In this document: positions 2,753 to 22,809 of the stretch, one piece after another
How positions within the stretch are numbered: position 1 is the first letter of the stretch
How the letters are laid out: each line of letters begins with the position of its first letter
NCBI GenBank assembly: GCA_017458125.1
Contig: JAFTGB010000016.1
Coordinates: 1-46,423 of the forward strand
DNA length: 46,423 bases
DNA from: Prevotella sp.
GTDB lineage: Bacteria; Bacteroidota; Bacteroidia; Bacteroidales; Bacteroidaceae
Direction: 5' to 3'
The notes under the pieces: generated by a model
The model's input: the letters and a program-made list of their open reading frames with translations, nothing else
Told to the model about the DNA's origin: nothing
The model's database searches: none
Made by a program: the position numbers and the translations under genes

Positions 2753-2786
2753 AGTTGTAATTCACTATATTAATAATTACTATTTC

Positions 2787-4460: not shown

Positions 4461-4482
4461 ATTAATACCAATGTTTAGGCTG

Positions 4483-4514
4483 CAAAGATACTTAAAAAAT
4501 TTAAAATATTGCAA
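4483..4514 (-). promoter_or_regulatory. Promoter of the glycogen synthase-glgP operon
   Basis: Minus strand reads TTGC (4511-4514), 20 bases, then TATCTTTG (4483-4490), an excellent match to the Bacteroidetes consensus. Transcription should start near 4476, leaving a leader of about 15 bases before the ATG at 4460. Confidence 0.75.
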
Positions 4515-5858: not shown

Positions 5859-5864
5859 GCGCCT

Positions 5865-6467: not shown

Positions 6468-6503
6468 TTGTTTCTTAGATTTTCAGTTGGTACTTCTGTG
6501 TCG

Positions 6504-8285
6504 TCAGTCTAACTTCAGAACGGCCAGGAAGGCTTTCTGCGGCACTTCCACATTGCCTATCTGTTTCATGCGTTTCTTTCCGCGCTTCTGCTTCTCCAAC
6601 AGCTTGCGCTTACGGCTGACATCACCGCCATAGCACTTGGCCGTGACGTCCTTGCGCACCTGTTTGACGGTCTCGCGGGCAATGATCTTAGCACCAATGG
6701 CAGCCTGAATGGCGATGTCAAACTGCTGGCGCGGGATGAGTTCCTTCAATTTCTCGCACATCCGCCGTCCAAAAGAAACAGCATTGTCCTGATGGGTCAG
6801 CGTTGACAGGGCGTCGACGGGTTCACCATTCAGCAGGATATCCAGTTTGACGAGCTTAGAGGGACGGAACGAGTCGATGTGGTAGTCGAATGAGGCATAG
6901 CCTTTCGAGATGCTTTTCAGCTTGTCGTAGAAGTCAATCACAATCTCGCCTAAAGGCAGCATGAAACGCAGTTCCACACGACCACCGCTGACATACTGCT
7001 GGTCAATCAGCTCGCCACGCTTGTCAAGACAGAGCGTCATGATAGGGCCAATGTAGTCGGCTGCGGTGATGATGCTGGCTTTGATATAGGGCTCTTCTAT
7101 GTGGTCTATCATCGTCTGGTCAGGAAGCCCCGAGGGGTTGTGCACCTCCTTCACCTCCTTCTGCTTGGTGTAGCACATGTAAGTGACGTTGGGCACGGTG
7201 GTGATGACGTCCATATCGAACTCACGGTCCAGTCGTTCCTGCACAATCTCCATGTGCAGCAGTCCGAGGAAACCGCAACGGAAACCGAAGCCCAAGGCTA
7301 CGGAAGTCTCGGGAACAAAGGTTAACGAGGCATCGTTCAGCTGCAGTTTCTCCAGTGATGCCCGCAGGTTCTCGTAGTCAGTAGGGTCAATAGGATAGAC
7401 ACCGGCAAACACCATGGGTTTCACCTCCTGAAATCCCTCGATGGCCTGCTGGCAAGGGCGTGCCACATGGGTAATGGTATCGCCGACCTTGACCTCCTTG
7501 GAGTCCTTGATGCCGCTGATGATATAGCCCACATCACCCGTCTTCAGTTCCTTGCGGGGTATCATGTCCATCTTCAGCACACCCACCTCATCGGCATCAT
7601 ACTCCATACCGGTATTGAAGAACTTCACTTTGTCGCCCTGACGGATGCTTCCGTTTACAATCTTGAAATAGGCAATGATGCCTCGGAACGAATTGAAAAC
7701 GGAGTCGAAAATAAGAGCCTGCAAGGGAGCTTCGGCATCGCCTGTAGGAGCCGGTATGCGCTCAACGACAGCATTAAGTATATCCTCCACGCCCTCGCCG
7801 GTCTTGCCGGAGGCACGAATGATGTCCTCCGGGTCGCAGCCAATGAGGTCGACAATCTCGTCTTCCACCTCATCGGGCATAGCTGACGGCATGTCTATCT
7901 TGTTGATGACGGGGATGATCTCCAAATCGTTATCTATGGCCAGATAAAGATTGGAAATAGTTTGAGCCTGAACTCCTTGCGTAGCATCGACTACCAAAAG
8001 CGCGCCCTCGCAAGCAGCGATGGAACGAGACACTTCATAAGAAAAGTCGACGTGTCCCGGAGTATCAATCAGGTTAAGGATATATTTCTCGCCTTTATAC
8101 ACATATTCCATCTGGATGGCATGGCTCTTGATGGTGATGCCACGCTCGCGTTCCAAATCCATATCGTCCAGCATTTGGCCTTCCGTCACCTGAATGGTCT
8201 TGGTGTATTCCAACAAACGGTCAGCCAGCGTGGACTTCCCATGGTCTATATGTGCAATGATGCAAAAGTTTCTGATGTGATCCAT
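6504..8285 (-). CDS. lepA: Elongation factor 4 (LepA), translational GTPase
   Basis: A 593-residue full-length LepA that acts on the ribosome. The G1 loop AHIDHGKST is at residues 11-19, the G2/G3 region includes [12 protein letters not shown] and [12 protein letters not shown], and NKIDMP is the G4 motif. The EF-G-like domains continue through to the LepA-specific C-terminal domain, ending in [24 protein letters not shown]. Start MDHIRNFC is the usual LepA N-terminus. It has its own promoter and is followed by the Crp/Fnr-type gene. Confidence 0.97.
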
Positions 8286-8310
8286 TGATGTACTATCGCA
8301 AAATACTTTG

Positions 8311-8318
8311 CAAAGATA
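8311..8318 (-). promoter_or_regulatory. Promoter -7 box of lepA
   Basis: Minus strand TATCTTTG, 26 bases upstream of the ATG. The -33 element is not clear: the nearest TTG is about 25 bases away. The rest of the 8286-8414 gap shows no terminator hairpin for the gene ending at 8415. Confidence 0.6.
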
Positions 8319-8414
8319 CTGAAAAAAAACGAAAACCCTTACACAACCAGTTCAGATTTTTGTTTTATTAAAGAAAACTTCCGTACTAAACATGGTTAGC
8401 GGCGGTCATGCGCC

Positions 8415-9392
8415 CTATTCGTTGAGCGTACCGCAATGAGGACAACGTCCTTTTGACAACAGGGGCTTCCCACAGTATCCGCAGACGTAGCGGCTATGCG
8501 AAAAGCGGCAAAACCGCCATAGGCCATAAGCCACGTAGGCCACCAGCAGAGCATAACCCACATAATACAAGGTGAAGATGCTGAATACGACGTAATCGAC
8601 GGCACAGACAGCAGCAAGACCGGCCAGATAAAGCAAGGCCTCGCCACCTTGGAGCTTACGGAATACGTCGTCGACAGCGGCACCCCCGACGATGATGATA
8701 GCCCATACGGAGGCTACGAATACGCCGAGATGAACCGGCAGTGCAAAGGGATTGAGCGAGGGATGGTAGTAGAAATGACGCCACGACTCTGGTGCGAACA
8801 TTTGTATGGAAGCATAAAGAGTGGCTGAGGCTGCCACCAACAGACACAGAAGTGTGGGATAGAAGGAGTCAATGTCGTTGAAATGGACGATATAGGCCTT
8901 ATGGCGCAGCAGACGACGCATGGCATAGGCACTGCCGACAACAGCACAGAAGGCTAAAAAGATGAGTAAATGGGTGTCGGAGAAGAAGTCAATGAACTCT
9001 GAAATGGGGTCGTCAGGCGATACGCCTTGCAGCAGTTCACTCTCGCGTATCCATCCCTGTGTAATCTGGTCGCGAGCCACTTTTACCCATACCGAGTCAA
9101 TGGTGTCGGTGGGTACCGTCTGTATCTCGGCCACAACAATGCGCTCACCTTTCGTGACATAAAGGGTATCGAAGGCCAAGTCGGGCAACTCGTCTGAAAG
9201 CGGCAGGCTTTCTGTGTTAACCACAAAATTAAAGCCTTGGGAATAATGGTGGGTTGTAGAAAAGGAGATGGAGTCCATCTGCTGCTTGGTCAGGTCCCAT
9301 GCGTCAGGAGTCCGCTGCCGGTGGTTGTAGCAGGAGGTAAGCAACAGTGCTGCCAAGAGTATGATGAGAGGTTTAATCTTCCGCATAGACAT
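8415..9392 (-). CDS. Membrane lipoprotein with SH3-like segment and C-terminal zinc ribbon
   Basis: 325 residues of unknown function. A type II signal peptide ends at LLTSC (Cys21). Residues about 77-121 (TLYVTKGERIVV...WVKVARDQITQGWIRESELL) read like a bacterial SH3-type domain. About five membrane helices follow (near 140-158, 179-198, 219-240, 252-270, 273-292). The end is a short zinc ribbon, Cys304-x2-Cys307 ... Cys317-x2-Cys320. It overlaps the U32 gene by 20 bp and is the last gene of the eight-gene operon. The zinc ribbon echoes those in the operon's first genes, so it may belong functionally with the kinase set; this is inference. Confidence 0.75.
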   Translation of the reverse strand: MSMRKIKPLIILLAALLLTSCYNHRQRTPDAWDLTKQQMDSISFSTTHHYSQGFNFVVNTESLPLSDELPDLAFDTLYVTKGERIVVAEIQTVPTDTIDSVWVKVARDQITQGWIRESELLQGVSPDDPISEFIDFFSDTHLLIFLAFCAVVGSAYAMRRLLRHKAYIVHFNDIDSFYPTLLCLLVAASATLYASIQMFAPESWRHFYYHPSLNPFALPVHLGVFVASVWAIIIVGGAAVDDVFRKLQGGEALLYLAGLAAVCAVDYVVFSIFTLYYVGYALLVAYVAYGLWRFCRFSHSRYVCGYCGKPLLSKGRCPHCGTLNE

Positions 9393-11160
9393 TCATTTGG
9401 CATTGTTTACAGTCAAACTCAAGACGAAAGAGACGTCCATCACCCAGTCGCAGTTTCAACGGTTCACGCCATTGCGGACGACGTCCACCATGCTTGACAC
9501 AGTAACCTAACGCATAGCGCAGACAATGACGGCACTGCATGACAGGCCCTTCCCCTCCCTTTAGCTCAAAAGCGGAAGTCGTCGGGACATCATAGAACTG
9601 CTGCGACATGTGGTTGGCTATATTATAAAGGTAAGGGTAAGGATAAGACGGTACTTCGGAAGCAGTTGCAGGCATACGCTGACGAGTTCTCTTCCTATCT
9701 GTGACCGTAAGGGCCGACAACAGCTGACGGCGCAATTCGCCAAGCACGCTATTGGGAACAAACAGGCTGAACGATTCGGGTATTTCAACCTTGTTGCATT
9801 CATAAGGAGTTCCACCAAGACGCGACAACTGACGAGCAATGTTGTCGTGCTGTGGATGATTAGCCTGTTGATGTTCGCACTTAATATCTACAGTCACTCT
9901 ACAAGCAGAAAGGCTGAACCCTTCTGGAGTAACATCGAAATGCATGGTAACGGGTATCTTGCGTTGGGCACTCGGACGAGCCAAAAGGCGTTCAAAATCC
10001 TGATCGTTATTGCGATAGAGAGCCATTCCAGGACGTAGGCTGGATGGCATCTTCTGAGGATACAGGCGGTTGTCTTCAGCCCGGTTGACACGGAAGCCCT
10101 CCAGTTCGCGCTGTTCATTGACGAAGCACAAGCCGTCACCGTTGGCAAACGAAGCCGTACCAGCCACATTGAAGGAATGCTGCCTTACCTCTTTCACTTT
10201 ACCGACATATTCGCCCATGGCCTTGGGTGTGTCTGGTGAGAAAATGTCTGGTTGACGGCCATGAAGGAAATAGGTGGTGAAGCCACGGTTGAATGTCTTT
10301 TGAAGATTGGGCGTAAAGGTATAGGTACTGTGCCCCTTGGAAGCTCTGCAATAGAGGTCAGGATGACGGTTGACAATGGCATTGAGCTTTTCGCTATATG
10401 CAGCTGTAACATTCTTCACATACCCGACGTCCTTCAGTCTTCCCTCTATCTTAAACGAGGTGGCTCCTGCTTCTATCAACTCCTCCAAATGACGGATTTG
10501 GTTCAGGTCTTTCAGTGACAACAGGTGTCGCTGATGTTCCAGTTCGTGACCATCGGCATCAATCAGGTCAAACTTCATGCGGCAGAACTGGGCACAGGCA
10601 CCCCGATTGGCCGAACGCTGGAAACACTGCTGCGAAGCATAGCACAATCCGCTATAGCTGACACATAGAGCTCCGTGGACAAAGACTTCCAAAGGCATGT
10701 CGGGAACTTGACGGTGAATGTCAGCAATTTCCTGAACTGAGAGTTCACGAGCCAGCACTACCCTTTCAAAGCCGCAGTCGCGCAACCAGCGTATCTTTTC
10801 GACAGTGCGATTGTCGGTCTGTGTAGAAGCATGGAGGGCTATCGGGGGTATTTGCATACGGAGAATAGCCATGTCCTGAACAAGGATGGCATCGGCACCA
10901 GCTTCATACAACTGACCTATCATGGTCTGAGTTTCGTCCAACTCGCTATCGTAGAGTATCGTGTTCACCGTAACGTAGACCTTTACGGAAAACTGATGCG
11001 CATACTGACACAGCTGCCGGATATCATCAATGCTGTTACCCACCGCTGCTCTGGCACCAAAACGGGGAGCACCGATGTATACAGCATCAGCACCATGGTC
11101 TACGGCAGCCATGCCGCACTCCAGATTCTTGGCCGGTGAGAGCAGTTCAAGAGCTATCAT
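9373..11160 (-). CDS. U32-family protein (RlhA/TrhP-type RNA hydroxylation)
   Basis: 595 residues labelled 'peptidase U32' in most databases; characterised relatives (E. coli RlhA and TrhP) support hydroxylation of 23S rRNA or tRNA. Visible family motifs are ELLSPAKNLECGMAAVDHGADAVYIG at the N-terminus (a TIM-barrel start), IALHASTQTDN, and the signature VFVHGALCVSYSGLCY followed by a Cys-rich stretch (CFQRSANRGACAQFC). A second domain of about 200 residues and a C-terminal Cys cluster (CRHCLRYALGYC, CKQCQ) follow. Length and the extra domain suggest the RlhA-like subgroup over the shorter TrhP. The start ATG overlaps the metA stop by four bases (ATGA), implying coupled translation. Confidence 0.85.
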   Translation of the reverse strand: MIALELLSPAKNLECGMAAVDHGADAVYIGAPRFGARAAVGNSIDDIRQLCQYAHQFSVKVYVTVNTILYDSELDETQTMIGQLYEAGADAILVQDMAILRMQIPPIALHASTQTDNRTVEKIRWLRDCGFERVVLARELSVQEIADIHRQVPDMPLEVFVHGALCVSYSGLCYASQQCFQRSANRGACAQFCRMKFDLIDADGHELEHQRHLLSLKDLNQIRHLEELIEAGATSFKIEGRLKDVGYVKNVTAAYSEKLNAIVNRHPDLYCRASKGHSTYTFTPNLQKTFNRGFTTYFLHGRQPDIFSPDTPKAMGEYVGKVKEVRQHSFNVAGTASFANGDGLCFVNEQRELEGFRVNRAEDNRLYPQKMPSSLRPGMALYRNNDQDFERLLARPSAQRKIPVTMHFDVTPEGFSLSACRVTVDIKCEHQQANHPQHDNIARQLSRLGGTPYECNKVEIPESFSLFVPNSVLGELRRQLLSALTVTDRKRTRQRMPATASEVPSYPYPYLYNIANHMSQQFYDVPTTSAFELKGGEGPVMQCRHCLRYALGYCVKHGGRRPQWREPLKLRLGDGRLFRLEFDCKQCQMNVYAED

Positions 11161-12074
11161 CTGATTTGGTTGATGTCGTATGGTGTTTCTTGATAGACGT
11201 AATAATTAATCCAATTGCTATACAACAAGTTGGCATGAGCGCGCCACGTCACAACGGGGGGCAAGTCCGGATTGTCGTCACGATAGTAATTGATGGGCAT
11301 GTCCACGTCATCACGGTGCCCCTTGTCACGCTTGTACTCTTTGTCCAACGTGTCAGGAGCGTACTCTAAATGTCCTGTTATGAAGAACTCGCGACCTTCA
11401 CGAGCCATGACGATGCTCACACCACTCTCCGCAGACTCTGCGATGAGGCTAAGCGCCGGATTGGCAAGAATATCGTCCCGGTGTACTTCCGTATGACGGC
11501 TATGAGGCATCTGGAAGACATCGTCAAAACCGCGGAAGATGGGTAGCTGGGGCTCTAATGTCACCTGCGGGAATATGCCAAACATCTTCTTTTGCAACGG
11601 GTACTTGGGTATGCCATAATGGTAATATAGTCCAGCCTGGGCTGCCCAACATATATATAAGGTACTCGTAACGTGCGTACGCGCCCACGAGAAAATTTCG
11701 GTCATCTCGTCCCAGTAGTTGACATCCTCAAAGTCAAGCGTCTCCACCGGGGCTCCTGTGATAATCATTCCATCGTACTTCTCCAACCGCATTTGTTCAA
11801 AATCACGATAGAACATCATCATGTGCTCTATAGGAGTATTCTTTGGTGTATGACTCTTCAGCTTCATAAAACTGATTTCCAACTGCAAAGGGGTGTTGGA
11901 GAGCAGACGTATGAGGTCTGTCTCTGTCGTAATCTTGAGCGGCATCAGGTTCAAAATGGCAATACGCAACGGACGGATGTCCTGCATGTGTGCACGCGAA
12001 TCATCCATCACAAAGATGTTCTCCTGCTTCAGCAGTTCTATGGCGGGAAGTTTATCGGGTAATCTTAAAGGCAT
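11157..12074 (-). CDS. metA: Homoserine O-acyltransferase (MetA), predicted acetyl-CoA specific
   Basis: First committed step of methionine synthesis: acylation of homoserine. The 305-residue protein has nucleophile Cys142 in LYICWAAQAGLYYHYG and the His235/Glu237 pair in FITGHLE, all at the positions known for the family. Residue 111 is Glu (ITGAPVETLDF). In the Bacillus cereus enzyme Glu111 goes with acetyl-CoA use, while succinyl-CoA enzymes such as E. coli have Gly there, so acetyl transfer is predicted despite the 'succinyltransferase' name often given. It sits 9 bp after the PP2C gene and overlaps the U32 gene. No methionine-responsive leader can exist here because the upstream gap is only 9 bp. 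Confidence 0.93.
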   Translation of the reverse strand: MPLRLPDKLPAIELLKQENIFVMDDSRAHMQDIRPLRIAILNLMPLKITTETDLIRLLSNTPLQLEISFMKLKSHTPKNTPIEHMMMFYRDFEQMRLEKYDGMIITGAPVETLDFEDVNYWDEMTEIFSWARTHVTSTLYICWAAQAGLYYHYGIPKYPLQKKMFGIFPQVTLEPQLPIFRGFDDVFQMPHSRHTEVHRDDILANPALSLIAESAESGVSIVMAREGREFFITGHLEYAPDTLDKEYKRDKGHRDDVDMPINYYRDDNPDLPPVVTWRAHANLLYSNWINYYVYQETPYDINQIR

Positions 12075-12083
12075 CTTTACTGA

Positions 12084-12833
12084 CTAATTTTCAATTTTAA
12101 AAACACATACCGAAACGTTGTCATAACCACCAGCATCTATGGCGGCCTCACAGAGTTCATTGGCATTGGCTCCGTCATTCATCAGGTGTTCGATAGCCGC
12201 GTCAGGAACCATGTCGTTCAAACCGTCCGAACACAACATATAGGTGTCACCAAGGCGCACGTCGTCGGTAAACTCAAACATGTCTATATACGAGTTCTTG
12301 CATCCTGCCCCTATGCAGTTGATAATGATGTTTGAATGTTTCTTCTCGCCACGGGCATTACTGAGCGAGTGGTCGGTCGTTATTTGTTTGAGTTGTCCGT
12401 CACGAAGACGGTACAGACGGCTGTCGCCGCAGTTCAGCCAGTAGTATTTCCCGTTGTAATAGATGATGCCCACTAAGGTTGTACCCATGTCTGCCATTGA
12501 CGGGTTGACACGCCCTTTTGAGTCAATAATCTGGTTGATGGACTGAAGCCATTCTACCATCATTTCGTAAAACTCCCCAGGGGAAAGCTTTTGGGGCAGA
12601 TCACTCAGGAAGAACTGCAGATTAGACAAGGTGTCGGAGCTGGCCACCTCACCAGCCTTATGACCGCCCATGCCGTCAGCCAACGCAATGACAAAGCGAT
12701 CCATATTCTCGGTTTGAAACTCTGTGGCGTAGATATCGCTACGCAAGAGTCTATCGTAGGCCAGCACCATGTCCTCGTTGTTGCTTCTCACGCATCCGAC
12801 ACGGCTTGCTGCCGTTAGTGTTATTCTACTCAT
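12084..12833 (-). CDS. PP2C-type Ser/Thr protein phosphatase
   Basis: 249 residues, a single PPM/PP2C catalytic domain with no membrane segment. Metal-binding motifs are intact: SNNEDMVLAYD near the start, IALADGMGGHKAGEVAS (about 49-65), NCGDSRLYRLRDGQLKQITTDHSL, MLCSDGLNDMVP, and the final GGYDNVSVCVF. It should remove phosphate from Ser/Thr, most simply reversing the kinase encoded at 16763-19726. Gene order kinase, AAA, FHA, PP2C on one strand supports a closed phosphorylation circuit. It lies 37 bp after the FHA gene; I see no promoter in the gap. Confidence 0.93.
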   Translation of the reverse strand: MSRITLTAASRVGCVRSNNEDMVLAYDRLLRSDIYATEFQTENMDRFVIALADGMGGHKAGEVASSDTLSNLQFFLSDLPQKLSPGEFYEMMVEWLQSINQIIDSKGRVNPSMADMGTTLVGIIYYNGKYYWLNCGDSRLYRLRDGQLKQITTDHSLSNARGEKKHSNIIINCIGAGCKNSYIDMFEFTDDVRLGDTYMLCSDGLNDMVPDAAIEHLMNDGANANELCEAAIDAGGYDNVSVCVFKIEN

Positions 12834-12870
12834 TTCTTCTATTTATCCTTATAACAAACTTTTTATATCT

Positions 12871-13446
12871 TCAGTTTACGCTCACCTGCAGGTTAACATT
12901 GGCCAAAGTGACTATGTCTCCACTCTTGATGGTCATCGGTATGTCAGGCAGAATGTCACGCTGGTTAAGCTTGGTACCATTCGAAGAATGCTTGTCAATG
13001 ATAGACCACCCTGACTCTGGTTTGTATATGAGTTGGGCGTGGACGCCAGAGACATACATATTATCTTTAAACATCTGCTGATAGGGACCCTGACGACGGC
13101 CGATGATAGCGCCATTAACACCTACAATACGAATGTCAAGACTCGGATTGTAGAGTGTCAACGTGGGAATGCCTGACATTCCGGGTAATTGCCCGTCAGC
13201 TCGTTGTGACACCTGACTGGCTCCTGTATAGGAGAATATGGAACTGCTTACAGAGTCAGCATTCTTGGCTCCGTCCCGTTGCTCCTGCTGTTCGTCGGCT
13301 CCCGTCATCAGTCCTCCGCAGAAAGTGCAACGGCGTCCCATCCCTACGCGTCCGCAGCTGCTACAGTAGACGAGAGGCTGCCCGCACTGGTCGCAATAGT
13401 GTGAGCCGTCTTCTATCTCTTCTTTACAATTTGGGCATATAATCAT
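12871..13446 (-). CDS. FHA-domain protein with two N-terminal zinc ribbons
   Basis: 191 residues. Two zinc ribbons come first: Cys4-x2-Cys7/Cys18-x2-Cys21 and Cys28-x2-Cys31/Cys40-x2-Cys43. A polar linker (about 48-85) follows, then a forkhead-associated domain (about 90-191) with GAIIGRR, the Ser and His of YVSGVHAQLI, and SSNGTKLN. FHA domains bind phosphothreonine peptides, so this is the likely reader of marks made by the neighbouring kinase; its threonine-rich N-terminus is a candidate ligand. The start overlaps the AAA gene stop by four bases (ATGA). Cytoplasmic. Confidence 0.9.
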   Translation of the reverse strand: MIICPNCKEEIEDGSHYCDQCGQPLVYCSSCGRVGMGRRCTFCGGLMTGADEQQEQRDGAKNADSVSSSIFSYTGASQVSQRADGQLPGMSGIPTLTLYNPSLDIRIVGVNGAIIGRRQGPYQQMFKDNMYVSGVHAQLIYKPESGWSIIDKHSSNGTKLNQRDILPDIPMTIKSGDIVTLANVNLQVSVN

Positions 13447-16400
13447 AGTTCTTCCTTAATATCCTCAGGCATAATATATTGATAAGTCTCTTGCGTAACC
13501 TCCTGCGGCGGTAGCGAGCTGACACGAACAGACAACTGCTGAATGGTCTTATCCAGCATGTTACGCATCTCACGAGCATTGCCAAACGACTGGTCTTTGC
13601 TGACTATACGCCTGCAAATGAGGTCCAGCAATTTAAATTCTGCACCAGGCGACAACGTGTAGTTGTCCTTGGCTGCCATTTTCTTGTATATGGCTAATAA
13701 TTCGTCTTCATTATAGTCCTCTATGTGCATCTTGTGAGTGAACCGGCTGGCCAGTCCTGGGTTCACGGCAAGGAATGCCTCCATCTCTTCCTTGTAACCG
13801 GCAGCAATGACAACAAACTTGCCACGGTCATCCTCCATACGTTTCATCAAGGTGTCTATGGCTTCCTTACCATACTGGTCGTTGCCCGACGAGAGAGTAT
13901 AGGCTTCGTCGATAAACAAAATGCCACCCATGGCCTTGTCACACATGCTGTTGACTATCTTCGGGGTCTCGCCCATGTACTTACCGACCAGTGTAGCACG
14001 GCTGGTTTCTATAACATGGCTGGTGGGCAGTATTTCCATAGACTGGAGTATCTCCCCCATCTTACGCGCAACACTGGTCTTACCCGTACCGGGATTTCCT
14101 GTCAGGATGAAGTTCATGGAAATCTGCTGAACTTTGCCGGCACCCATGGCGGCACGTTGTTTCACAAACATGCTCTGCACGGCTAACCGACGTATCATGT
14201 TCTTGACAGAGCGCATGCCGACGAACTCATCCAGTTCGTTAAGCACCTCATCCAACGGACGGGCTTTCTCGTCCTGAGGCTGGTCCAGATCAGCTACCGT
14301 AATGCTATACATGTCCTGCTCCTTGAAGTCAGGCATGTTCATGAGCGACATCAGCCGCTGGCTCTGCCTCTCTACGGCCTGGTTGAAGATGCGTCGTGCC
14401 TCACGGGCATTGCCGAAGTTCTTGTCACGACGCAGGTACAGCTGTTCAAACTGCCGGTGGATGGCACCCTGTGTGTCCTCGTCCACTTTGAACTTCTTGT
14501 CCTTGGCCAGGTTGAGGAATATCTGAGTAAGCTCGTCCGGAGTATAGTCGTCAAAATGAATGATCTGGGTGAAGCGGCTCTTCAGTCCCGGATTTGAGTC
14601 GATAAAGTCATGCATCTGGTCCGTATAACCGGCCACTATGCATATAAACTTGCCACGGTCGTCCTCCAGGCGCTTGAGCAGGGTGTCTATGGCTTCCGCC
14701 CCAAAGCTGTCGCTGTCGCCTGACTTCAGTGTGTACGCCTCATCTATGAACAACACGCCGCCCATGGCCGAATCGATGAGTTGATTGGTCTTGATGGCCG
14801 TCTGTCCCGAATATCCTGCCACCAGTTTCGAACGGTCAGCCTCTATCAGCTGTCCACGTGACAGGATGCCAAGGGTGCGAAACACATCGGCCATGATACG
14901 TGCCACCGTCGTCTTTCCCGTTCCGGGGTTACCTGTGAAGACATAGTGCTTCCCTTGGAAGGTGTTGCTTTCGCCTCGGCGTATCTGCAGGTTGAGGAAG
15001 GAAGCCAGATTAGTAATTTCCCTTTTTACAGCATTCAGTCCAACCAGTCCGTCCAGTTTTGCCAGACATTCTGTATAGTCAACGGTCTGCGGAGCCTCGT
15101 AGGGAATGTCGTCTACGGTTATGGTCATCAGCTCCTCATTGGACAGTGTCGATATGTCGATATGCTGAAGGCGTTCTGCCTGCCGCGAGCATATCTTGTC
15201 GAACAGCAGGCGCATGGTACGGCCGTTGGCAAAGTCCTTGTCACGAGAGTTGTAAAGCTCGGCTATCATCTTCAACGCAAGTTCACGGGCATCGGGAGCA
15301 AAGACGTACTTTTTCTCATGGGCAAAGACCTCCATGATTTGGAAAAGTTGACTGGGAGTATAGTCGTCAATGTTGAGGAAATAGCTGAAACGACTACGGA
15401 ACCCCGCATTAATACGGAACAGGTTGTCCATCTCCTGACGGTATCCTGCCGCTATCACCACAAACTTGCCACGGTCGTCCTCCATGCGTTTCATCAACTG
15501 TTCCAAAGCCTGTGCTCCTTGCTGGTCTCGGTCGCCGCTCTGGTTGACAGGCGCAAGTGTGTACGCTTCGTCTACGAAGAGTATGCCTCCCATGGCCTTG
15601 TCGCACAGACGGTCCACCACTTTGGGTGTCTCCCCCTGATAAGGACTGACCATCTTTGAGCGGTCCACCTCGACAACATGTCCGCTGTCTAAATAGCCTA
15701 TGGCTTCCAGTATCTCGCCTAACTTACGGGCTATGCTGGTTTTACCGGTACCCGGGTTCCCCGTCAGCACGATGTGTATGCCTGCCTTCTGCTGCTCGCC
15801 CAGTCCGCGTTGAGCCCGTTCCATGTTGTTGTGTACGGTTAACGCTATCTCGCGCACAGCACGTTTCACTTCGTCCATGCCGATATAGTGGTCCAAATCG
15901 CCTAAGATGTCGTCCAGCGTGCGCTCCTCAGGCACATATCCGCGTATATCCTGCTCCTCTACCCTCTCAGCGTTGATGCCCCTGCTGATAAACGACGTGA
16001 AGATGTCCTCCGCCGTCTTAACAGCAACATGCCTGTAACCAAAGCTGTCGTCTTTCACCTTAACCTGATACTGGAAAAAGCGTTGCAGCTTACGTTCAGC
16101 TTCTGGCGAATAGACAGAGATGCCATAGGTATTGCGTAACTCTTGCTTACAGATATCGCACAGTTCCTGATAGTCAGGCGTAGGCAGTCGGAAAGTGTAC
16201 TTGAAACGGTTTTGTGCCGCCGGGTTAGCCGACAGGAAATCGTCCAGTCCCTTGGGCAGTCCGGATATGATAACGATGGGGTTCTCGTCCCACTTATCCA
16301 TCTCGACAAAAAGCTTATCCAGCGGATTTACCTGATTGGAATAACGGTCTGGCAGTAATTTCTGCACGTTGTCGAAGAACAGTATTCCCCCACGCGCCTT

Positions 16401-16760
16401 CTTAATGTTGTCTTCCCACTTGTCGACAAACCGTTGGTAGTCAACGGCATCAACCATCGTCAGCTTAGGTTTGTCTATAATCTTGTGCTGGTAGAAATAA
16501 TCGCGGATGACCTCTGCCAAAGCCGTCTTGCCCGTGCCAGTCTCACCAATGATAATGGCGTTCACGCTCAGGCGTACCTTGACGACATCTTTTCGGGAGC
16601 GCAGATAAGTGTAGGTGTCAACAACGGTCTTCAGTTGCTGCTTCACGTTGTCGAGTCCTACCAGCCGTTCCAGCACATTCTGCGACACCAATGGTTTTCC
16701 ACACCACCGGCAGAACTTGGCTATTGAGCGGTTTTCCTTATGACAATGGTCACAAATCAT
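13443..16760 (-). CDS. Four-module CbxX/CfqX-type AAA ATPase with N-terminal zinc ribbon
   Basis: 1105 residues. A zinc ribbon (Cys3-x2-Cys6 ... Cys17-x2-Cys20) is followed by four AAA modules with Walker A loops at about 72-79, 334-341, 610-617 and 888-895. Modules 2-4 have canonical GNPGTGKT and Walker B LF(V/I)DEAYTL followed by MEDDRGKFVVIAAGY, the signature of the CbxX/CfqX (SpoVK/EccA-like) group. Module 1 is divergent: GETGTGKT, then LFFDN at 127-131, so Asn131 replaces the catalytic Glu and it may bind but not hydrolyse ATP. Four such modules on one chain is unusual, as most relatives have one or two and assemble as rings. It lies 2 bp after the kinase gene and overlaps the FHA gene. 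It is likely the remodelling motor of the cluster; the substrate is unknown. Confidence 0.9.
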   Translation of the reverse strand: MICDHCHKENRSIAKFCRWCGKPLVSQNVLERLVGLDNVKQQLKTVVDTYTYLRSRKDVVKVRLSVNAIIIGETGTGKTALAEVIRDYFYQHKIIDKPKLTMVDAVDYQRFVDKWEDNIKKARGGILFFDNVQKLLPDRYSNQVNPLDKLFVEMDKWDENPIVIISGLPKGLDDFLSANPAAQNRFKYTFRLPTPDYQELCDICKQELRNTYGISVYSPEAERKLQRFFQYQVKVKDDSFGYRHVAVKTAEDIFTSFISRGINAERVEEQDIRGYVPEERTLDDILGDLDHYIGMDEVKRAVREIALTVHNNMERAQRGLGEQQKAGIHIVLTGNPGTGKTSIARKLGEILEAIGYLDSGHVVEVDRSKMVSPYQGETPKVVDRLCDKAMGGILFVDEAYTLAPVNQSGDRDQQGAQALEQLMKRMEDDRGKFVVIAAGYRQEMDNLFRINAGFRSRFSYFLNIDDYTPSQLFQIMEVFAHEKKYVFAPDARELALKMIAELYNSRDKDFANGRTMRLLFDKICSRQAERLQHIDISTLSNEELMTITVDDIPYEAPQTVDYTECLAKLDGLVGLNAVKREITNLASFLNLQIRRGESNTFQGKHYVFTGNPGTGKTTVARIMADVFRTLGILSRGQLIEADRSKLVAGYSGQTAIKTNQLIDSAMGGVLFIDEAYTLKSGDSDSFGAEAIDTLLKRLEDDRGKFICIVAGYTDQMHDFIDSNPGLKSRFTQIIHFDDYTPDELTQIFLNLAKDKKFKVDEDTQGAIHRQFEQLYLRRDKNFGNAREARRIFNQAVERQSQRLMSLMNMPDFKEQDMYSITVADLDQPQDEKARPLDEVLNELDEFVGMRSVKNMIRRLAVQSMFVKQRAAMGAGKVQQISMNFILTGNPGTGKTSVARKMGEILQSMEILPTSHVIETSRATLVGKYMGETPKIVNSMCDKAMGGILFIDEAYTLSSGNDQYGKEAIDTLMKRMEDDRGKFVVIAAGYKEEMEAFLAVNPGLASRFTHKMHIEDYNEDELLAIYKKMAAKDNYTLSPGAEFKLLDLICRRIVSKDQSFGNAREMRNMLDKTIQQLSVRVSSLPPQEVTQETYQYIMPEDIKEEL

Positions 16761-16762
16761 GG

Positions 16763-19726
16763 CTATTCTACGTCCTTTTGTATCTGGTCCACTATCTCCG
16801 ACGGACTCTTGCGTAAATTGTCCACATCAGGGTTTGGGATATTCAGCAACTTGGGGCTGAAGACTATCATCTCCAGCAACAGCAGGGCCACCATGATGCT
16901 CCACAGTATGTAGTGCATGACCGACTCGCCGCATAGCGATCGTATCTGGTTGGCCACATCGTCCAGCATGCCGAACTTCGAGCCTTTGAACTTGAAAGAC
17001 TTCTGCTTGAAGGTATAGTAGAGAGGCTCCAGCAGTGTTGACTTGATGTCGTCTTCCATCACCTCGTTGACCATCTGGTTGTCTTCTTTTGACTCACTGC
17101 GGAAGTCGGTGACATGGCAGACAAGCATATATATTAATGTGATGGCGATGACTGCCGGCACGAACAGAGCAGGGAAGGTATGGTCAGTAAACCGGAGTAT
17201 CGCAAAGGGCAGCCAGGCTGTGAGAGCACCTAACAGTCCGAAGATGCCGGACATCACGAAGCCGAAGCCCCGGAAGTAGGCACGCAAACCTACGATGACT
17301 GCCGTCATGCCTCCCACGGGCACACCGATGGACAGGAACGAATGGCGCAACAGGTAATCGCGACCTGACACTCCGCACAGCAGCAACAACAATACCCACA
17401 GTCCACAAAGGGCGTAGAACGTAATGCGCCACCGGTGCTCCTTGGCCTTGGCACGGTAGTAGCCCTCGCGCACCTGTTTGTACTTCTTAGCCGTCTCCTC
17501 CTTGGCATTGCCGAAACGTTTGTAATACTGCTGGTCCTGGTCTATTTCCCCCAGATTGATCACCCACTCCTCTAACTTTCGCTCGTAGCTATACATTTCG
17601 CTGAAGTCTCTGTTAGGGTCTTCGTGGTAGAATACGGCCATCCATTGGCTTAAGGAGCCACGTTTCAAGGCAGCCAGCAGTTGCGGGCGATAGGCCAGCT
17701 TGTCAAAGTCACTGCCGTCTTTCAGCACCTTGCCGCCTTCCAGCACATAAGCAGGTATCACTCCGAGAATACGACAGAAGCGATAGGCTGCCGTTCGCAA
17801 GTCATAGGCACTCAGCCTTTCGCGGTTCTCTTCACTCTTCAGGTCGAAGCAGGCACGCGCCTGACTAATCTGCTCGAACCAGCCATGCAGCTGCGCGAAA
17901 TAGGAGAAACGGCCGTCAGCACTGGCATAGTCGCTGACCTTTAGGGCAAAATCGCGGTCACTCAAGTCCTGCCACTGTTTCAGCTCCTCGGCCAGCACCT
18001 CGCCTACTTTATAGGGGGTATCAGCCTCACGCAGGTCAAAAGCAGCGTCACGGTTCATGTTGTATAGCACCTTGTATCCCAACGAGCGCGACGGTTTCTT
18101 TCCGGAGGTCATGATACGAAGGGCCTCGCAGGCCATCTTGTCCTCATGGCTATACATCCATGACAGCAGTCGGCCGTCACTGAGACTCATCCACTCATCG
18201 TCCGAACAGTTACCGTAACCGAAAGCGTGTACGATTTCCTGCAGTGTTGCCGACGGCTGCTTGGCCAGGAACGGTATCTCAGAGTCTATCTCGAAGGCCA
18301 GCTTCAATATAGCTATGCGGCTGTCCAATTGGCTTTCTTCCGAGAAATAGCTGCGCAGCCTGTCGACGTCAGCCTTGGAATGGGACTCCAGATAGAGGAA
18401 AAGGGTGTCGTTTGGATTAGTGAGCACCAGTTTGTACTCATCCAGATAGCTCAGCACAGAGATGGCAACGCTGTGTATGTCGTCGCACAAGTTGCCACGA
18501 ATGTCACGGTACGGATAGGTAGGTTCCATGGTGTAGACGGCAGCCATGAGTCCTGCTGACTGGTTGACTGGATAGCGGTTGACGACGATGTCCTTCAGTG
18601 CAGAGCTGAGTTTCACGTTGCCACACTGCTCCAACCACCCGGCCAGTCGTCCGTTATACAGGTAGCTGATGGCCAGGCGCTCGTTCTCTACAAGCAGCGG
18701 TATCAACTCATGTATATTGTCTGCCACGAGGTTACGCTCCGGGTCGACGATGAAACTGCGATATTTCAGTATGGGTGACGAGAGGTCTACCTTGACATCC
18801 TCGCCTAAGAACCACCGCTCCACCTCGTTATATCCCCAACGGGTCTGCGGATTGACGGTGGTCAGTCCCTGGATAATCATTTTCACACGTTCGGGCAACT
18901 CGTTGACGCGGGGCAGCCGTCCCTCGTTCTTCTTGCGCATCATGACGCGCTCGTTTTGGCTCAGCGGGTTCTCGCCCAGCCACAAGGTCAGCAGAGTGAT
19001 GCCTAACGAATAAAAGTCGACGGCAGCCGTTATCTCCACCTCTCCGTCTATCACATCATTATACATCTCCGGTGCGGCATACACTGGCGTGCGTGCCTGT
19101 GTCGTGCGATGCAGCCTCTCGTCATTTTCCATGATGCTGGATATGCCGAAGTCGCCCAGCACCACTTCCTTGTGGTTCGTGTCCCTGAAAAAGAAGTTGC
19201 TGGGTTTGATGTCCTTATGTATGATGTTGTGTTGGTGGCAGAAAGTCAGTGCAGCGGCAGCCTGCAGAGCAATGCGCCGAAACTGGTTGAAGTCTCCGTC
19301 CAGGTCGTAGTTGTTCAGCGAGCCACCCCTCAGATACTCCATCAGTTCGTAGTCACGGTTTTTGCCGTCCATGTAGGTCTTACCGTAATCCTCTATCCTT
19401 ACCACCATCTCCACATTGATGTTCTGGATGATACGCATGAGCGTTTTCTTGATGGTGAAGTTGGGGTAGTATATCTTCAACACCCGCTCACCCTCCTCGC
19501 CTTCGACCAAGAAGACTTGTGCCTCACCCGAGGAGTCGCTCAGGCATTTGATGCTTCTGTATAGTCTGCCTTTCAGGAGGAATTCCGCCCCGCCGTCTGA
19601 CTGGCTCTGCGTAGTGTCGGAAGGACGCAGGGTGACATCTGCTGTGATGTCCTGGGTTCTCGGGGCATTCACGCGGACCGTGGTGTCAGCTGACGGTTGT
19701 GGATTTCTGATGGTATGCTCGTCCAT
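16763..19726 (-). CDS. Membrane-anchored eukaryotic-like Ser/Thr protein kinase
   Basis: 987 residues. The first 50 are threonine-rich (eight Thr) and look unstructured. The kinase domain (about 52-320) has Lys84 (RVLKIYY), the catalytic loop IIHKDIKPSN (Asp172), DFG at 192-194 and YAAPEMY, so it should be active; the Gly-rich loop is degenerate. A long helical region (about 340-780) of unknown fold follows. About four hydrophobic helices come next, starting with ITFYALCGLWVLLLLLCG, and a fifth near the C-terminus. It contains no PASTA or other extracellular sensor domain. It lies 6 bp after the zinc-ribbon gene and 2 bp before the AAA gene, so it is firmly part of the operon. Confidence 0.92.
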   Translation of the reverse strand: MDEHTIRNPQPSADTTVRVNAPRTQDITADVTLRPSDTTQSQSDGGAEFLLKGRLYRSIKCLSDSSGEAQVFLVEGEEGERVLKIYYPNFTIKKTLMRIIQNINVEMVVRIEDYGKTYMDGKNRDYELMEYLRGGSLNNYDLDGDFNQFRRIALQAAAALTFCHQHNIIHKDIKPSNFFFRDTNHKEVVLGDFGISSIMENDERLHRTTQARTPVYAAPEMYNDVIDGEVEITAAVDFYSLGITLLTLWLGENPLSQNERVMMRKKNEGRLPRVNELPERVKMIIQGLTTVNPQTRWGYNEVERWFLGEDVKVDLSSPILKYRSFIVDPERNLVADNIHELIPLLVENERLAISYLYNGRLAGWLEQCGNVKLSSALKDIVVNRYPVNQSAGLMAAVYTMEPTYPYRDIRGNLCDDIHSVAISVLSYLDEYKLVLTNPNDTLFLYLESHSKADVDRLRSYFSEESQLDSRIAILKLAFEIDSEIPFLAKQPSATLQEIVHAFGYGNCSDDEWMSLSDGRLLSWMYSHEDKMACEALRIMTSGKKPSRSLGYKVLYNMNRDAAFDLREADTPYKVGEVLAEELKQWQDLSDRDFALKVSDYASADGRFSYFAQLHGWFEQISQARACFDLKSEENRERLSAYDLRTAAYRFCRILGVIPAYVLEGGKVLKDGSDFDKLAYRPQLLAALKRGSLSQWMAVFYHEDPNRDFSEMYSYERKLEEWVINLGEIDQDQQYYKRFGNAKEETAKKYKQVREGYYRAKAKEHRWRITFYALCGLWVLLLLLCGVSGRDYLLRHSFLSIGVPVGGMTAVIVGLRAYFRGFGFVMSGIFGLLGALTAWLPFAILRFTDHTFPALFVPAVIAITLIYMLVCHVTDFRSESKEDNQMVNEVMEDDIKSTLLEPLYYTFKQKSFKFKGSKFGMLDDVANQIRSLCGESVMHYILWSIMVALLLLEMIVFSPKLLNIPNPDVDNLRKSPSEIVDQIQKDVE

Positions 19727-19732
19727 AATGTC

Positions 19733-20671
19733 TTATTTGTCGTCTTTGATGTCTGTGAGATTGTTCTTGCCCAAGATCACCCACTTGCCGCCCATCTGGG
19801 GCTTGGCGCAGCCACAAGGACTGCTGTGCATGGCGTGCTTGAAGTTGCACACCCAGGCCAGCCGGACTCCTACTGGCTTGCTGGCCATAGCGTAGTTGCG
19901 TGCCTTGGCGGGTGACGGTGTGACAGGGATGGCCAGTTTGTCGAGGATGGCCGAGAGCCGCTTGACTTGTTCGGCTTTCTTCTCCTCCAGCTCGTCTTTG
20001 GTCAGACGCTGTGTCTCTATCTTTGGAATGTCAGGGTCGGCAATGCCTTCGTCCTGGGCTAAAAGGGTCAGCACACGCTCACGCAGCTGTTGGCAGGCCT
20101 GTTCCTTTCTGATGTCACGCTCTGAGTCGTAGGGCAGCGAGTTCTCCAGTTTCGAGTATTCCTGCACCGCCGTCATCAGCTCCTGATAGTCGGGGTTCTG
20201 CTGCAGCTCCTTGACCAACTGGCGCGCCTCCTCGGTCAGTGCCGTGCCGCACTTCTTGCAAAAGGCGAAGTCGTTCAGCGTGTGACATGTGGGACACACC
20301 ACTCCACCACGCGGGCTGCCGCACTCTGGGCAGTATGCCTCGCTACCGTTCAGGCGCGCTCCGCAGTACGAACAGACATCCTTGCGCATGTACTTGTGGC
20401 AGACCTCGCAGAAGTCGGCATCGGGGTCGGCCTCTGCTCCGCAGTGGGGACATGTGGTTTTGCTGATGGGCTGTCCGCACTGAGCACAGAATACGGCCTC
20501 CTGGTCGTTGACGGCTCCACAGAAGGGACAGGCCTTACCAGCTGCTTTCTGCTGTTGCATCAGCATCTGCTCTTGTGGGGCGTCCTGAACAGGGACATAC
20601 TCCATCTGCAACTGTTGTGACCGAACGGTGCGCTGGGTATCAGAGGTGTCGAAATGGTTATCGTTGTTCAT
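19733..20671 (-). CDS. Four-zinc-ribbon adaptor protein, first gene of the signalling operon
   Basis: 312 residues. Four CxxC...CxxC ribbons sit side by side: Cys48/51/62/65, Cys74/77/88/91, Cys100/103/114/117 and Cys126/129/138/141. A charged helical segment (about 145-245, QLVKELQQNPDYQELMTAVQEYSKLE and onward) follows, then a C-terminal module with WVCNFKHAMHSSPCGCAKPQMGGKW that could hold another metal. There are no catalytic motifs and no membrane segments, so it is probably a scaffold or nucleic-acid/protein-binding adaptor. The N-terminus contains threonines (DTSDTQRTVR) that could be phospho-sites. It has its own strong promoter and is followed closely by the kinase gene. Confidence 0.82.
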   Translation of the reverse strand: MNNDNHFDTSDTQRTVRSQQLQMEYVPVQDAPQEQMLMQQQKAAGKACPFCGAVNDQEAVFCAQCGQPISKTTCPHCGAEADPDADFCEVCHKYMRKDVCSYCGARLNGSEAYCPECGSPRGGVVCPTCHTLNDFAFCKKCGTALTEEARQLVKELQQNPDYQELMTAVQEYSKLENSLPYDSERDIRKEQACQQLRERVLTLLAQDEGIADPDIPKIETQRLTKDELEEKKAEQVKRLSAILDKLAIPVTPSPAKARNYAMASKPVGVRLAWVCNFKHAMHSSPCGCAKPQMGGKWVILGKNNLTDIKDDK

Positions 20672-20691: not shown

Positions 20692-20724
20692 CAAAGATAG
20701 TAATTTATTTTGAAACAAAACAAA
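20692..20724 (-). promoter_or_regulatory. Promoter of the zinc-ribbon/kinase operon
   Basis: Minus strand TTTG about 21 bases upstream of TATCTTTG (20692-20699). Another TTTG lies 16 bases upstream. The leader is about 14-20 bases. Confidence 0.65.
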
Positions 20725-20753
20725 AAACCGCCGTAAATTTAGATTTACGACGG
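20712..20753 (-). terminator. Terminator after the M13 peptidase gene
   Basis: Minus strand hairpin with 10-bp arms (20744-20753 and 20728-20737, one C/A mismatch) and a six-base loop, followed by TTTTTTGTTTTG. It overlaps the -33 region of the next operon's promoter, so the two transcription units are packed back to back. Confidence 0.85.
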
Positions 20754-20781
20754 CATTTTTATCGGGTTTTGGATGATTTGT

Positions 20782-22809
20782 TTACCAAAGAGACAGGCGT
20801 TCAGCCTTGGGAATGAACATCTTGTCGCCCTCCTTGACACCAAATGCATCGTACCACATGTCAATATGCGGCAGCGCACCGTTGACGCGCCAGCGTCCCA
20901 GCGAGTGCGGGTCGCTCTTGGTGCGGTTACGTATCTCGGCCTCTGTAATGTTGCCCGCCCACACACCGGCATAGGCGATGAAGAAACGCTGGTCGGCAGT
21001 CAGTCCGTCAATGACGGGCAGTGATTGGCGCTTGGTGGCGTTCTTGTAGGCATACCAGGCCACCTGCAGTCCGCCGTGGTCGGCCAAGTTCTCACCCAAA
21101 GTCAGGCGACCGTTGCCATTCAGGTCTGGCAGCACCTTGATAGCCGAGAAGAAATCAGCATACTTATCAGTGCGTTGTGTAAATTTATTTCCGTCATTCT
21201 CCGTCCACCAGTCATGCATGTTTCCATCCTTGTCGTACTGGCGTCCCTGGTCGTCGAAGCCATGAGTCATCTCGTGACCAATAACAACTCCTATAGCACC
21301 GTAGTTGAACGCGTCGTCAGCTGTTGGGTCGAAGAACGGAACTTGAAGAATACCAGCAGGGAAGCAGATTTCGTTCGTGGTAGGGTTATAGTACGCGTTG
21401 ACCGTCTGCGGAGTCATGTACCAGTCGTCACGGTCTACGGGTTTTCCTGCTGTATGGTCTATGTGCCATGCAGTCCAGAAGCGTGAACACTCCTGCATAT
21501 TCTCATAGTAAGATTTTTTTGCATCAATTTTCAGAGCCGAGATGTCGGTCCAACGGTCAGGATAACCAATCTTGACATAGAACGTATTCAGTTTCAGCAA
21601 GGCATTGACCTTAGTCGAGTCGTCCATCCAGTCCTGAGCGGCAATGCGCTCACCCAAGGCCACGCGAAGGTTTTCGACCAGCGTCTTCATGCGCTCCTTA
21701 GACGAGGCGGGGAAATACTTCTTGACATAGATGCGTCCCAGAGCCTCGCCCATGACGCCCTGCACCTGATTAGTGGAGCGACGCCACAGCGGGTGGTCCT
21801 CCTTACGTCCTGAGAACACCTTGCCGTAGAAGTCGAAGTTCGCAGCACGAACGGCGTCGTTCAGATAGCCTGTAGAGCCGTCGATGATGCCCCACTCCAT
21901 GACGTCGCGGAACTCATCTGCCTTCATCGTGGCAAAGAGTTTGTCGGCTGCCGCCATGAATGCAGGCTGGCCCACTACCATTTGCTGTATGTACTGCGTC
22001 TTAATGCCTTTGGCGTTCATCTGGCGTTCCAGTTGTAGGTGGGGGTACTTCGCGGCAAACTCCTGCAGTGTCATTTTATTGTAGTTGGCTTTCGGGTCAC
22101 GCAGTTCGGTACGCGACTTGGACGCCTTGGCCAGAGCCGTTTCCACTTTCAGAATGTTCCGCATCTTGCGTTCAGCGGCACCCTTCTTGAAGCCGAAGAG
22201 CTGGAACATGCGGACGATGTGCTTTTTATATGCCTCCCGAATCTTTGTCGTAGCCTCGTCGGTCTCCAAGTAGTAGTCTTTCTGTCCTAACGTCAGTCCG
22301 CTCTGGCTGATGTTCAGGATGTTGTCCGTGGCATTCATTTCGTCGGCGCCCATGTAGGCACTGAAGAACTCCTGTTCGCCGTAGGGCATGAGCTCCAGTT
22401 GGAGTGCAAAAAGCTGCTCCTTGCTCTTGGCTGCCTCAAGTCGATTGATCAGGGGCATGACGGGAGCCAGCCCGTCCTTCTCGCGGCGTGCCGAGTCCAT
22501 GGCCAGTTTGTAGAGGTCGCTCAGTTTCTGCTCGACACTGCCCTCCGGGTAGCTGTTTTCCAACAGCTCTTTCAGAATGCCGTTAATACGTTTGTTGTTG
22601 TCCTCGGCCAGACGGTCGAAACTGCCGTAACGCGAATAGGCAGCAGGCAGCGGGTTGGCTTTCATCCAACCGCCGCAGGCATACTCGTAGAAGTCGTCGG
22701 CAGCACGTACACTGGTGTTCAAGTCGTTCAGACTAATGCCTGAACGCAGCTGTGCGGGTGCTGTCGATGCCATCGTTGCTAATGCCATCATTGTCAAAAG
22801 TTTTTTCAT
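20782..22809 (-). CDS. M13-family zinc metallopeptidase (neprilysin/PepO-like)
   Basis: 675 residues. A signal peptide (MKKLLTMMALATMASTAPAQ) indicates export to the periplasm or outer surface. The catalytic zinc site is HEMTH at 512-516 with the third ligand Glu573 in GENLADHGG. NAYYNP (471-476) and the C-terminal WRVNGALPHIDMWYDAF complete the family pattern, including the substrate-carboxylate-binding Arg region. Such enzymes cleave small peptides. The gene begins 24 bp after the ABC-F gene on the same strand and ends at a strong terminator, so the two may share a transcript. Confidence 0.95.
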   Translation of the reverse strand: MKKLLTMMALATMASTAPAQLRSGISLNDLNTSVRAADDFYEYACGGWMKANPLPAAYSRYGSFDRLAEDNNKRINGILKELLENSYPEGSVEQKLSDLYKLAMDSARREKDGLAPVMPLINRLEAAKSKEQLFALQLELMPYGEQEFFSAYMGADEMNATDNILNISQSGLTLGQKDYYLETDEATTKIREAYKKHIVRMFQLFGFKKGAAERKMRNILKVETALAKASKSRTELRDPKANYNKMTLQEFAAKYPHLQLERQMNAKGIKTQYIQQMVVGQPAFMAAADKLFATMKADEFRDVMEWGIIDGSTGYLNDAVRAANFDFYGKVFSGRKEDHPLWRRSTNQVQGVMGEALGRIYVKKYFPASSKERMKTLVENLRVALGERIAAQDWMDDSTKVNALLKLNTFYVKIGYPDRWTDISALKIDAKKSYYENMQECSRFWTAWHIDHTAGKPVDRDDWYMTPQTVNAYYNPTTNEICFPAGILQVPFFDPTADDAFNYGAIGVVIGHEMTHGFDDQGRQYDKDGNMHDWWTENDGNKFTQRTDKYADFFSAIKVLPDLNGNGRLTLGENLADHGGLQVAWYAYKNATKRQSLPVIDGLTADQRFFIAYAGVWAGNITEAEIRNRTKSDPHSLGRWRVNGALPHIDMWYDAFGVKEGDKMFIPKAERLSLW

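Follow-up and report, generated by a model that had tools for sequence, protein, structure and literature searches.

Switches built from a serine/threonine kinase, a phosphatase and a forkhead-associated (FHA) protein control type VI secretion systems (T6SS), type VII secretion systems (T7SS) and mycobacterial enzymes. In Bacteroidota, many rumen Prevotella included, such a switch appears to be hard-wired to a tandem AAA motor. We describe here a five-gene operon that carries this combination, found on a 46,423-nucleotide stretch of Prevotella sp. DNA (contig JAFTGB010000016.1 of assembly GCA_017458125.1; the whole stretch is called the window below). The threonine phosphorylation pathway of the T6SS consists of PpkA, PppA, Fha and TssL, as described in the part of PMC3953482 drawn on here. 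In Gram-positive bacteria, T7SS subtypes c-j include a TsxD kinase, a TsxF PPM phosphatase, a TsxJ FHA protein and a TsfV AAA+ protein, and for T7SSf the corresponding part of a 2024 survey lists no kinase found and a TsfV without detectable homology to EccA (PMC11217815). Type III-A CoCoNuTs carry the TerY-P triad with a SpoVK extension (PMC11090510, in the part drawn on here).

The operon occupies five minus-strand open reading frames (ORFs) in the order ZNR-KIN-AAA-FHA-PP2C, with intergenic distances of 6, 2, -4 and 37 bp. Its features, with Pfam E-values, are the following.

19733..20671, minus strand: ZNR, zinc-ribbon protein of 312 aa; ribbons at 20249-20530 (DZR, 5.9e-22)
19781-19855, minus strand: C-terminal W-x-C...H...C-x-C...GGxW motif of ZNR
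16763..19726, minus strand: KIN, Ser/Thr kinase of 987 aa (Pkinase, 5.6e-32); threonine-repeat tail at 19583-19726, kinase domain at about 18812-19570
16856-17425, minus strand: five C-terminal hydrophobic segments of KIN, from hydropathy; a conserved region lies between the kinase domain and these segments
13443..16760, minus strand: AAA, 1105 aa, four AAA modules (AAA, 5.8e-63, four stretches; AAA_lid_6, three stretches); N-terminal zinc ribbon at 16701-16754
16524-16547, minus strand: Walker A of AAA module 1
16356-16391, minus strand: degenerate Walker B (DN) of AAA module 1
12871..13446, minus strand: FHA protein with zinc ribbons, 191 aa (FHA, 3.5e-11; DZR, 1.1e-7)
12084..12833, minus strand: PP2C, Stp1-like Ser/Thr phosphatase of 249 aa (PP2C_2, 2.1e-9)

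An earlier note on this DNA had read five closely spaced same-strand genes here, encoding a writer (kinase), an eraser (PP2C), a reader (FHA), an AAA motor and a zinc-ribbon adaptor, with ribbons on the adaptor, AAA and FHA proteins and with the kinase tethered to the membrane. The ORF coordinates and Pfam domains agree with this account, the ribbons are present in all three proteins, and the window kinase has its C-terminal hydrophobic segments.

The five genes are a real conserved unit. The comparison covered 80 Prevotella loci, the best 80 of 110 (titled Prevotella, Prevotellaceae or Bacteroidales, many of them ruminant-derived), and 11 loci from other families; loci, genomes and contigs carry L, G and C numbers below. 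The complete order is found in 78 of the 80 Prevotella loci, the other two (L033 and L059) running off contig ends, and in eight of the 11 other-family loci (L100, L111, L113, L114, L115, L133, L134 and L135); L101, L112 and L136 are on short contigs and incomplete. Since the order is kept in all eight other-family loci with a long enough contig, the gene set is not a chance association. The earlier note had treated the genes as one undescribed system: they do stay together in relatives, scattering was looked for and not seen in the Prevotella and other-family loci, and no description of a system with this exact composition was found in the literature searched. Single-gene insertions within the unit occur in L100 and L114. 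Purifying selection acts on the operon genes, with dN/dS of 0.00-0.08 in 26 of 30 gene-by-pair cells from six close pairs; three of the remaining cells have saturated dS and one, for ZNR, gives 0.47 on hardly any changes.

KIN has the Lys, catalytic Asp and DFG signature of a Hanks-type kinase in all 105 aligned rows. K84, H170, D172, K174, N177, D192-F-G and E220 are invariant, as expected from the intact Lys84, Asp172 and DFG of the first reading, and the catalytic loop is HKD in 96 rows and HRD in nine. These rows hold 102 distinct sequences; L017 and L018 duplicate the L100 and L101 genes, and recounts were made on 101. Residues of about 310-760 are conserved, with no Pfam family over its cut-off. 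The five hydrophobic segments of the window protein span residues 768-957; among 18 kinases, five such segments are predicted in 11, four in six and two in one, and the L113 and L135 kinases have one extra segment further upstream. An SH3_3 domain follows the last transmembrane segment of the L135 kinase, a distant relative, and long tails that look beta-rich by eye extend past the last segment in L100, L112 and L114, the window tail being short. Given an N-in topology and five segments, these SH3 or beta-rich tails would lie outside.

The kinase domain is preceded by a poorly conserved stretch of 40-121 residues in which D-x-T-[ILV]-[RK] repeats recur: DTTVRV and DVTLRP in the window, DKTLKP in L100, DKTIRL in L112 and DKTIRP in L114. 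The core T[ILV][RK] is found 223 times in the 101 distinct tails, against 10.5 +/- 3.1 in shuffled tails (maximum 20 in 1000 shuffles), and at least once in 94 of them. Across all 105 tails the count is 235 against 11.1, and the 11 tails from other families give 29, compared with 1.2 in shuffles (maximum 6). The motif accounts for 235 of 763 threonines in the tail and for 116 of 4180 in the remainder of the kinase, and the -2 position is Asp in 53% of 214 tail motifs, the +2 position Arg in 86%. Because they are kept in drifting sequence beside a kinase and an FHA reader, the motifs are best read as phospho-acceptor or docking sites. This goes beyond the earlier note: the tail repeats are a likely candidate for the FHA target within the operon. 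A DNA pattern for D-[DEKN]-K-T-[IVM]-[RS] has 27 places in seven operon-bearing genomes: nine fall in KIN genes of the operon, eight of these in the tail, one falls in the FHA gene of the G554 operon, and the 17 found elsewhere compare with 15 for a reversed-pattern control, so that a wider substrate family is not shown by this pattern.

The reader and the eraser are intact as well. R117, S133, H136, N156 and G157 of the FHA protein are invariant in 88 of 88 rows; R117, S133 and N156 presumably are the Arg, Ser and Asn of the phosphothreonine pocket, and the protein has the residues predicted for phosphothreonine binding. PP2C keeps D53, D203 and D238 in 87 of 87 rows and scores 156.9 bits against the Stp1 NCBIfam model (cut-off 230). 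The draft genome, 88% complete, has one further FHA match and one further PP2C match. In ZNR, the cysteines of ribbons 2-4 are kept in 102-103 of 103 rows and those of ribbon 1 in 92, and C275, H282, C288 and W297 are present in every row. Its AlphaFold model has a pLDDT of 77.2 and a pTM of 0.58, and its similarity to GerD is limited to residues 131-178. The N-terminal tail of ZNR carries a motif similar to that of the KIN tail in 46 of the 103 rows, all within the genus.

The AAA protein exceeds the NCBIfam cut-offs for SpoVK, EccA and CbbX, and CbbX and EccA1 are the only solved chains below 1e-20, with CbbX 3syk at 3.4e-67. Its modules resemble CbbX, EccA and SpoVK (3syk, 3zuh, 9lur) in sequence and in having the AAA_lid_6 lid. 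AAA proteins of these families usually have a single module per chain; unlike them, the operon protein has four modules in the window and five in L111, L114, L115 and L134, as well as an N-terminal zinc ribbon. Walker A motifs are at residues 72, 334, 610 and 888. Modules 2-4 have the Walker B Asp-Glu in 88 of 88 rows; module 1 keeps its Walker A lysine (K78) in all 88 and has Asn (N131) in place of the Walker B Glu, likewise in all 88. This degeneracy, which the earlier note did not contain, suggests a "frozen" module that would bind ATP without hydrolysing it. A tree of 60 modules, taken from 14 proteins, groups all 14 first modules in a single clade (support 100/100) and divides most of the remaining ones between two classes. 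In Prevotella, modules 2 and 4 go with one class and module 3 with the other, and the pattern is shifted by one in L100 and L135; modules 3 and 4 of L113 share a class, many of the inner branches have weak support, and the placement of several L111, L114 and L133 rows is loose. An alternation of two module classes is therefore suggested, not proven. Together with the degenerate module 1, the two classes would make the protein a test case for role assignment in concatenated AAA rings.

From these features, we put about even weight on the operon encoding an envelope-sensing, phospho-switched AAA protein-remodelling machine. The membrane kinase, N-in and, if the five segments are right, C-out, would sense the envelope and, once active, phosphorylate its own N-terminal D-x-T-[ILV]-[RK] repeats, and in many Prevotella perhaps the ZNR tail too. 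The FHA protein would dock on the resulting phosphothreonines, and the zinc ribbons of FHA (two), ZNR (three to four, plus the C-terminal metal-like motif) and AAA (one) would join the parts, so that the tandem AAA protein would be concentrated beside the kinase at the inner membrane. ATP hydrolysis by modules 2-4 (2-5 in some) would there power the remodelling or disassembly of a client protein, with module 1 acting as a fixed regulator, until PP2C removes the phosphates and releases the machine. The phospho-switch is well supported by the anatomy of the operon and the assembly mechanism moderately so. We further propose, tentatively, that the operon represents an undescribed machine class across distant Bacteroidota, in which the kinase tail is a multivalent phosphothreonine array, FHA and zinc ribbons form a scaffold, the AAA protein is a concatenated ring at the membrane with two alternating module classes and a frozen module, and PP2C is the off switch. 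If the phospho-switch model holds, a single operon would encode the acceptor sites, the reader, the eraser and the machine, a compact and self-contained example of motor assembly driven by phosphorylation.

Several points weigh against the phospho-switched machine. Seven of the 101 distinct kinase tails have no motif (L009, L082, L088, L094, L101, L116 and L136), the shuffles ignore relatedness while 90 of the 101 rows come from one genus, and the ZNR tail motif is found in none of the 10 other-family ZNR proteins. The C-out orientation is unsure because the segment count varies and hydropathy is crude. Membrane recruitment is not required for CbbX-type ATPases, and the zinc ribbons could bind nucleic acid instead of joining the parts.

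The operon could alternatively control a secretion or surface machine encoded elsewhere, in the manner of PpkA, PppA and Fha or of the T7SS-subtype sets; we consider this unlikely. The functional set is equivalent to those described in the parts drawn on here for the T6SS (PMC3953482) and T7SS subtypes (PMC11217815), the EccA model is matched above its cut-off, and SUKH-like genes are close by in three loci (L111 at 10445-10966 and L114 at 6789-7583, over the Pfam cut-off; L112 at 4665-5198, weak). Secretion genes are absent from the scanned window genes, as the earlier note had stated. The likeness to the T6SS pathway lies in the kinase, the phosphatase and an FHA protein that would read phosphothreonine near a protein N-terminus (Thr14 of TssL in the T6SS; PMC3953482, same part). 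Unlike in that pathway, the candidate threonines are on the kinase, the AAA protein is CbbX-type and the scanned window genes include no T6SS gene. The contractile sheath TssC (PF05943) was found in none of the nine operon-bearing genomes, although the sheath of the Bacteroidota T6SSiii may escape this model and need another. With T7SS the operon shares a membrane kinase, a PPM phosphatase and a separate FHA protein (T7SSe, T7SSj) and a cytoplasmic AAA+ protein (T7SSf). However, those subtypes carry TsxC and the WXG100 protein TsxA (T7SSi is unclear), the operon has neither, and TseJ/TsfJ join FHA to DUF6382 where the operon FHA protein has zinc ribbons (PMC11217815, in the part drawn on here). 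T7SS membership was rejected: FtsK_SpoIIIE, the EssC/EccC-type ATPase, is absent from the operon, window and selected flank genes scanned, and WXG100 (PF06013) was matched in one of the nine operon-bearing genomes, on contig C86, unlinked to the operon.

This WXG100 match (L176, contig C86 of G000; minus strand, about 9360-9590 and 9642-12272) is a side observation in its own right. The WXG100 protein (2.4e-7) is encoded beside an 876-aa FtsK/SpoIIIE ATPase (5.9e-24), with an integrase-like ORF close by, as judged by eye. The arrangement suggests that this Prevotella-type draft genome carries a T7SS-like cassette, a binning error being possible; the part of the 2024 survey drawn on here places T7SS across Bacillota and Actinomycetota (PMC11217815).

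The operon has the kinase and PP2C pair of TerY-P, and shares with it zinc ribbons and, with some TerY-P operons, a SpoVK AAA protein (PMC11090510, same part). Unlike TerY-P, it has an FHA protein, and its ribbons are borne by ZNR, AAA and FHA instead of the kinase. No VWA match was obtained among the operon, window and selected flank genes, which agrees with the earlier note, and because this TerY component is absent from the scanned genes the operon is not TerY-P. By analogy, its working would resemble that of the PpkA/PppA/Fha switch, and it appears to stand outside both T7SS and TerY-P. A TerY-P-like triad is present separately in the same draft genome (L177, contig C18 of G000, 5447-10389), with two vWA proteins, one of them with TerY_C, a kinase and the second PP2C of the genome.

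The distribution of the operon bears on another alternative. A ZNR profile search matched nine of 395 genomes of the phylum at 1e-8, seven of them strongly (own genome and G453 included), three of 79 and four of 80 genomes in two families (overlapping the phylum set), and five of 393 genomes of the order, among them the own genome, G453 and G056; it misses genomes in which ZNR is cut, such as G047. Two weak matches (G179 and G223; L117 and L118) were dropped, the operon being absent there. KIN relatives occur in two other families (G056 and G047) and in 11 of 35 congeners searched. Such a patchy distribution is consistent with anti-phage or stress defence, in which the kinase would sense damage and the phospho-switched AAA protein would act on a toxic or viral target. 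In the same direction, KIN matches the PADLOC mad6 (5.2e-36) and PD-T4-6 models, AAA matches the IetA and TRIP13 models, and a SUKH-like or DUF1963 gene lies within the operon or closes it in four of the 11 other-family loci, namely the three with SUKH-like proteins and L100, where DUF1963 is 3' of PP2C (18930-19574). SUKH and DUF1963 we take to be immunity families. However, the PADLOC matches fall in shared kinase or ATPase domains, those to PD-T4-6 spanning the kinase domain only, with no cut-off given, and the NCBIfam models stay far under their cut-offs (MAD6 83 bits against 460, IteA 72 against 510). No nuclease or methylase is among the operon genes, the flanks in Prevotella are stable (see below), and the operon genes are under strong purifying selection. 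On balance defence is an improbable account. Carriage by phages or plasmids was rejected: 35 pattern matches in viral contigs gave no confirmed ZNR relative, and the single plasmid KIN record spans the kinase domain only.

Gene surroundings vary between families. L100 has an extra AAA-like ORF without Walker A and L101 a weak nucleotidyltransferase-like ORF. A DUF123 gene is directly 3' of PP2C in L115 (5693-6151) and L134 (7719-8168), both of one genus. L033 and L040 share the draft-genome prefix CAMVOS01, and L031, which comes from another draft genome, has a kinase identical to the L033 one; mixing in the bin is more probable here than a second copy of the operon.

In the window the surroundings resemble ordinary chromosome, with genes for an M13 peptidase and an ABC-F-like ATPase upstream, and with metA, a U32 peptidase and LepA downstream. 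The following features border the operon.

11157..12074, minus strand: metA, homoserine O-succinyltransferase (HTS, 5.4e-134), 9 bp 3' of PP2C
20782..22809, minus strand: M13 peptidase (Peptidase_M13), flank upstream of the insertion site
20692..20723, minus strand: promoter-like site TTG-N21-TATCTTTG before ZNR, read directly
20722..20754, minus strand: terminator-like hairpin with a T run, separating the M13 gene from the operon, read directly

In Prevotella, each of the 75 loci that extend far enough has metA 3' of PP2C, and M13 adjoins ZNR in 72 of 80, the other eight having contig ends, a split M13 (L068), an intervening ORF (L086) or other genes upstream of ZNR. Therefore the unit is largely one inherited site within Prevotella. 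Ten congeners negative for KIN were searched for metA and nine were positive; the regions of seven were compared, those of G003 and G029 being omitted. In five of the seven (L137, L138, L139, L140 and L142) M13 lies directly next to metA; two ORFs separate them in L143, and the L141 stretch contains no M13. Between M13 and metA the five genes are thus present or absent as a block, a further addition to the earlier note, and the block may have been gained once or lost repeatedly.

The site before ZNR we take to be a promoter of the Bacteroidota type. In 44 of 81 loci, TTG-N18-22-TAnnTTTG lies in the 150 bp that precede ZNR (shuffle mean 0.57, maximum 3 in 100 shuffles), and it occurs upstream of none of KIN (81), AAA (81), FHA (79), PP2C (79) and metA (76). 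TAnnTTTG alone precedes PP2C in three of 79 loci, and two of nine further loci (L115 and L116) have the full site before ZNR. A hairpin similar by eye to that of the window is present in L020 and L078. Within 150 bp upstream of metA, TAnnTTTG is found in none of 76 operon loci (in the window the gap is 12075-12083), against five of seven operon-free loci (L137-L143), at -28 to -38. This fits a single transcript from the operon into metA in Prevotella, a missing consensus being no proof of a missing promoter, and the operon may be joined to metA transcription there.

The same link raises the possibility of a CbbX-like activator of a metabolic enzyme, tied to methionine synthesis by co-transcription. 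The resemblance of the modules to CbbX, the 9 bp gap and the absence of TAnnTTTG before metA in the operon loci are in keeping with it. Nevertheless, metA was not seen beside the operon in L133-L136, nor among the translated neighbours in L100, the TTG part is present in just one of the five operon-free metA sites (L140), and an enzyme of this kind would be unusual in being paired with a transmembrane kinase; we regard this explanation as very unlikely. Elsewhere in the window, a glycogen synthase gene adjoins a carbohydrate-phosphorylase-type gene (182-4514).

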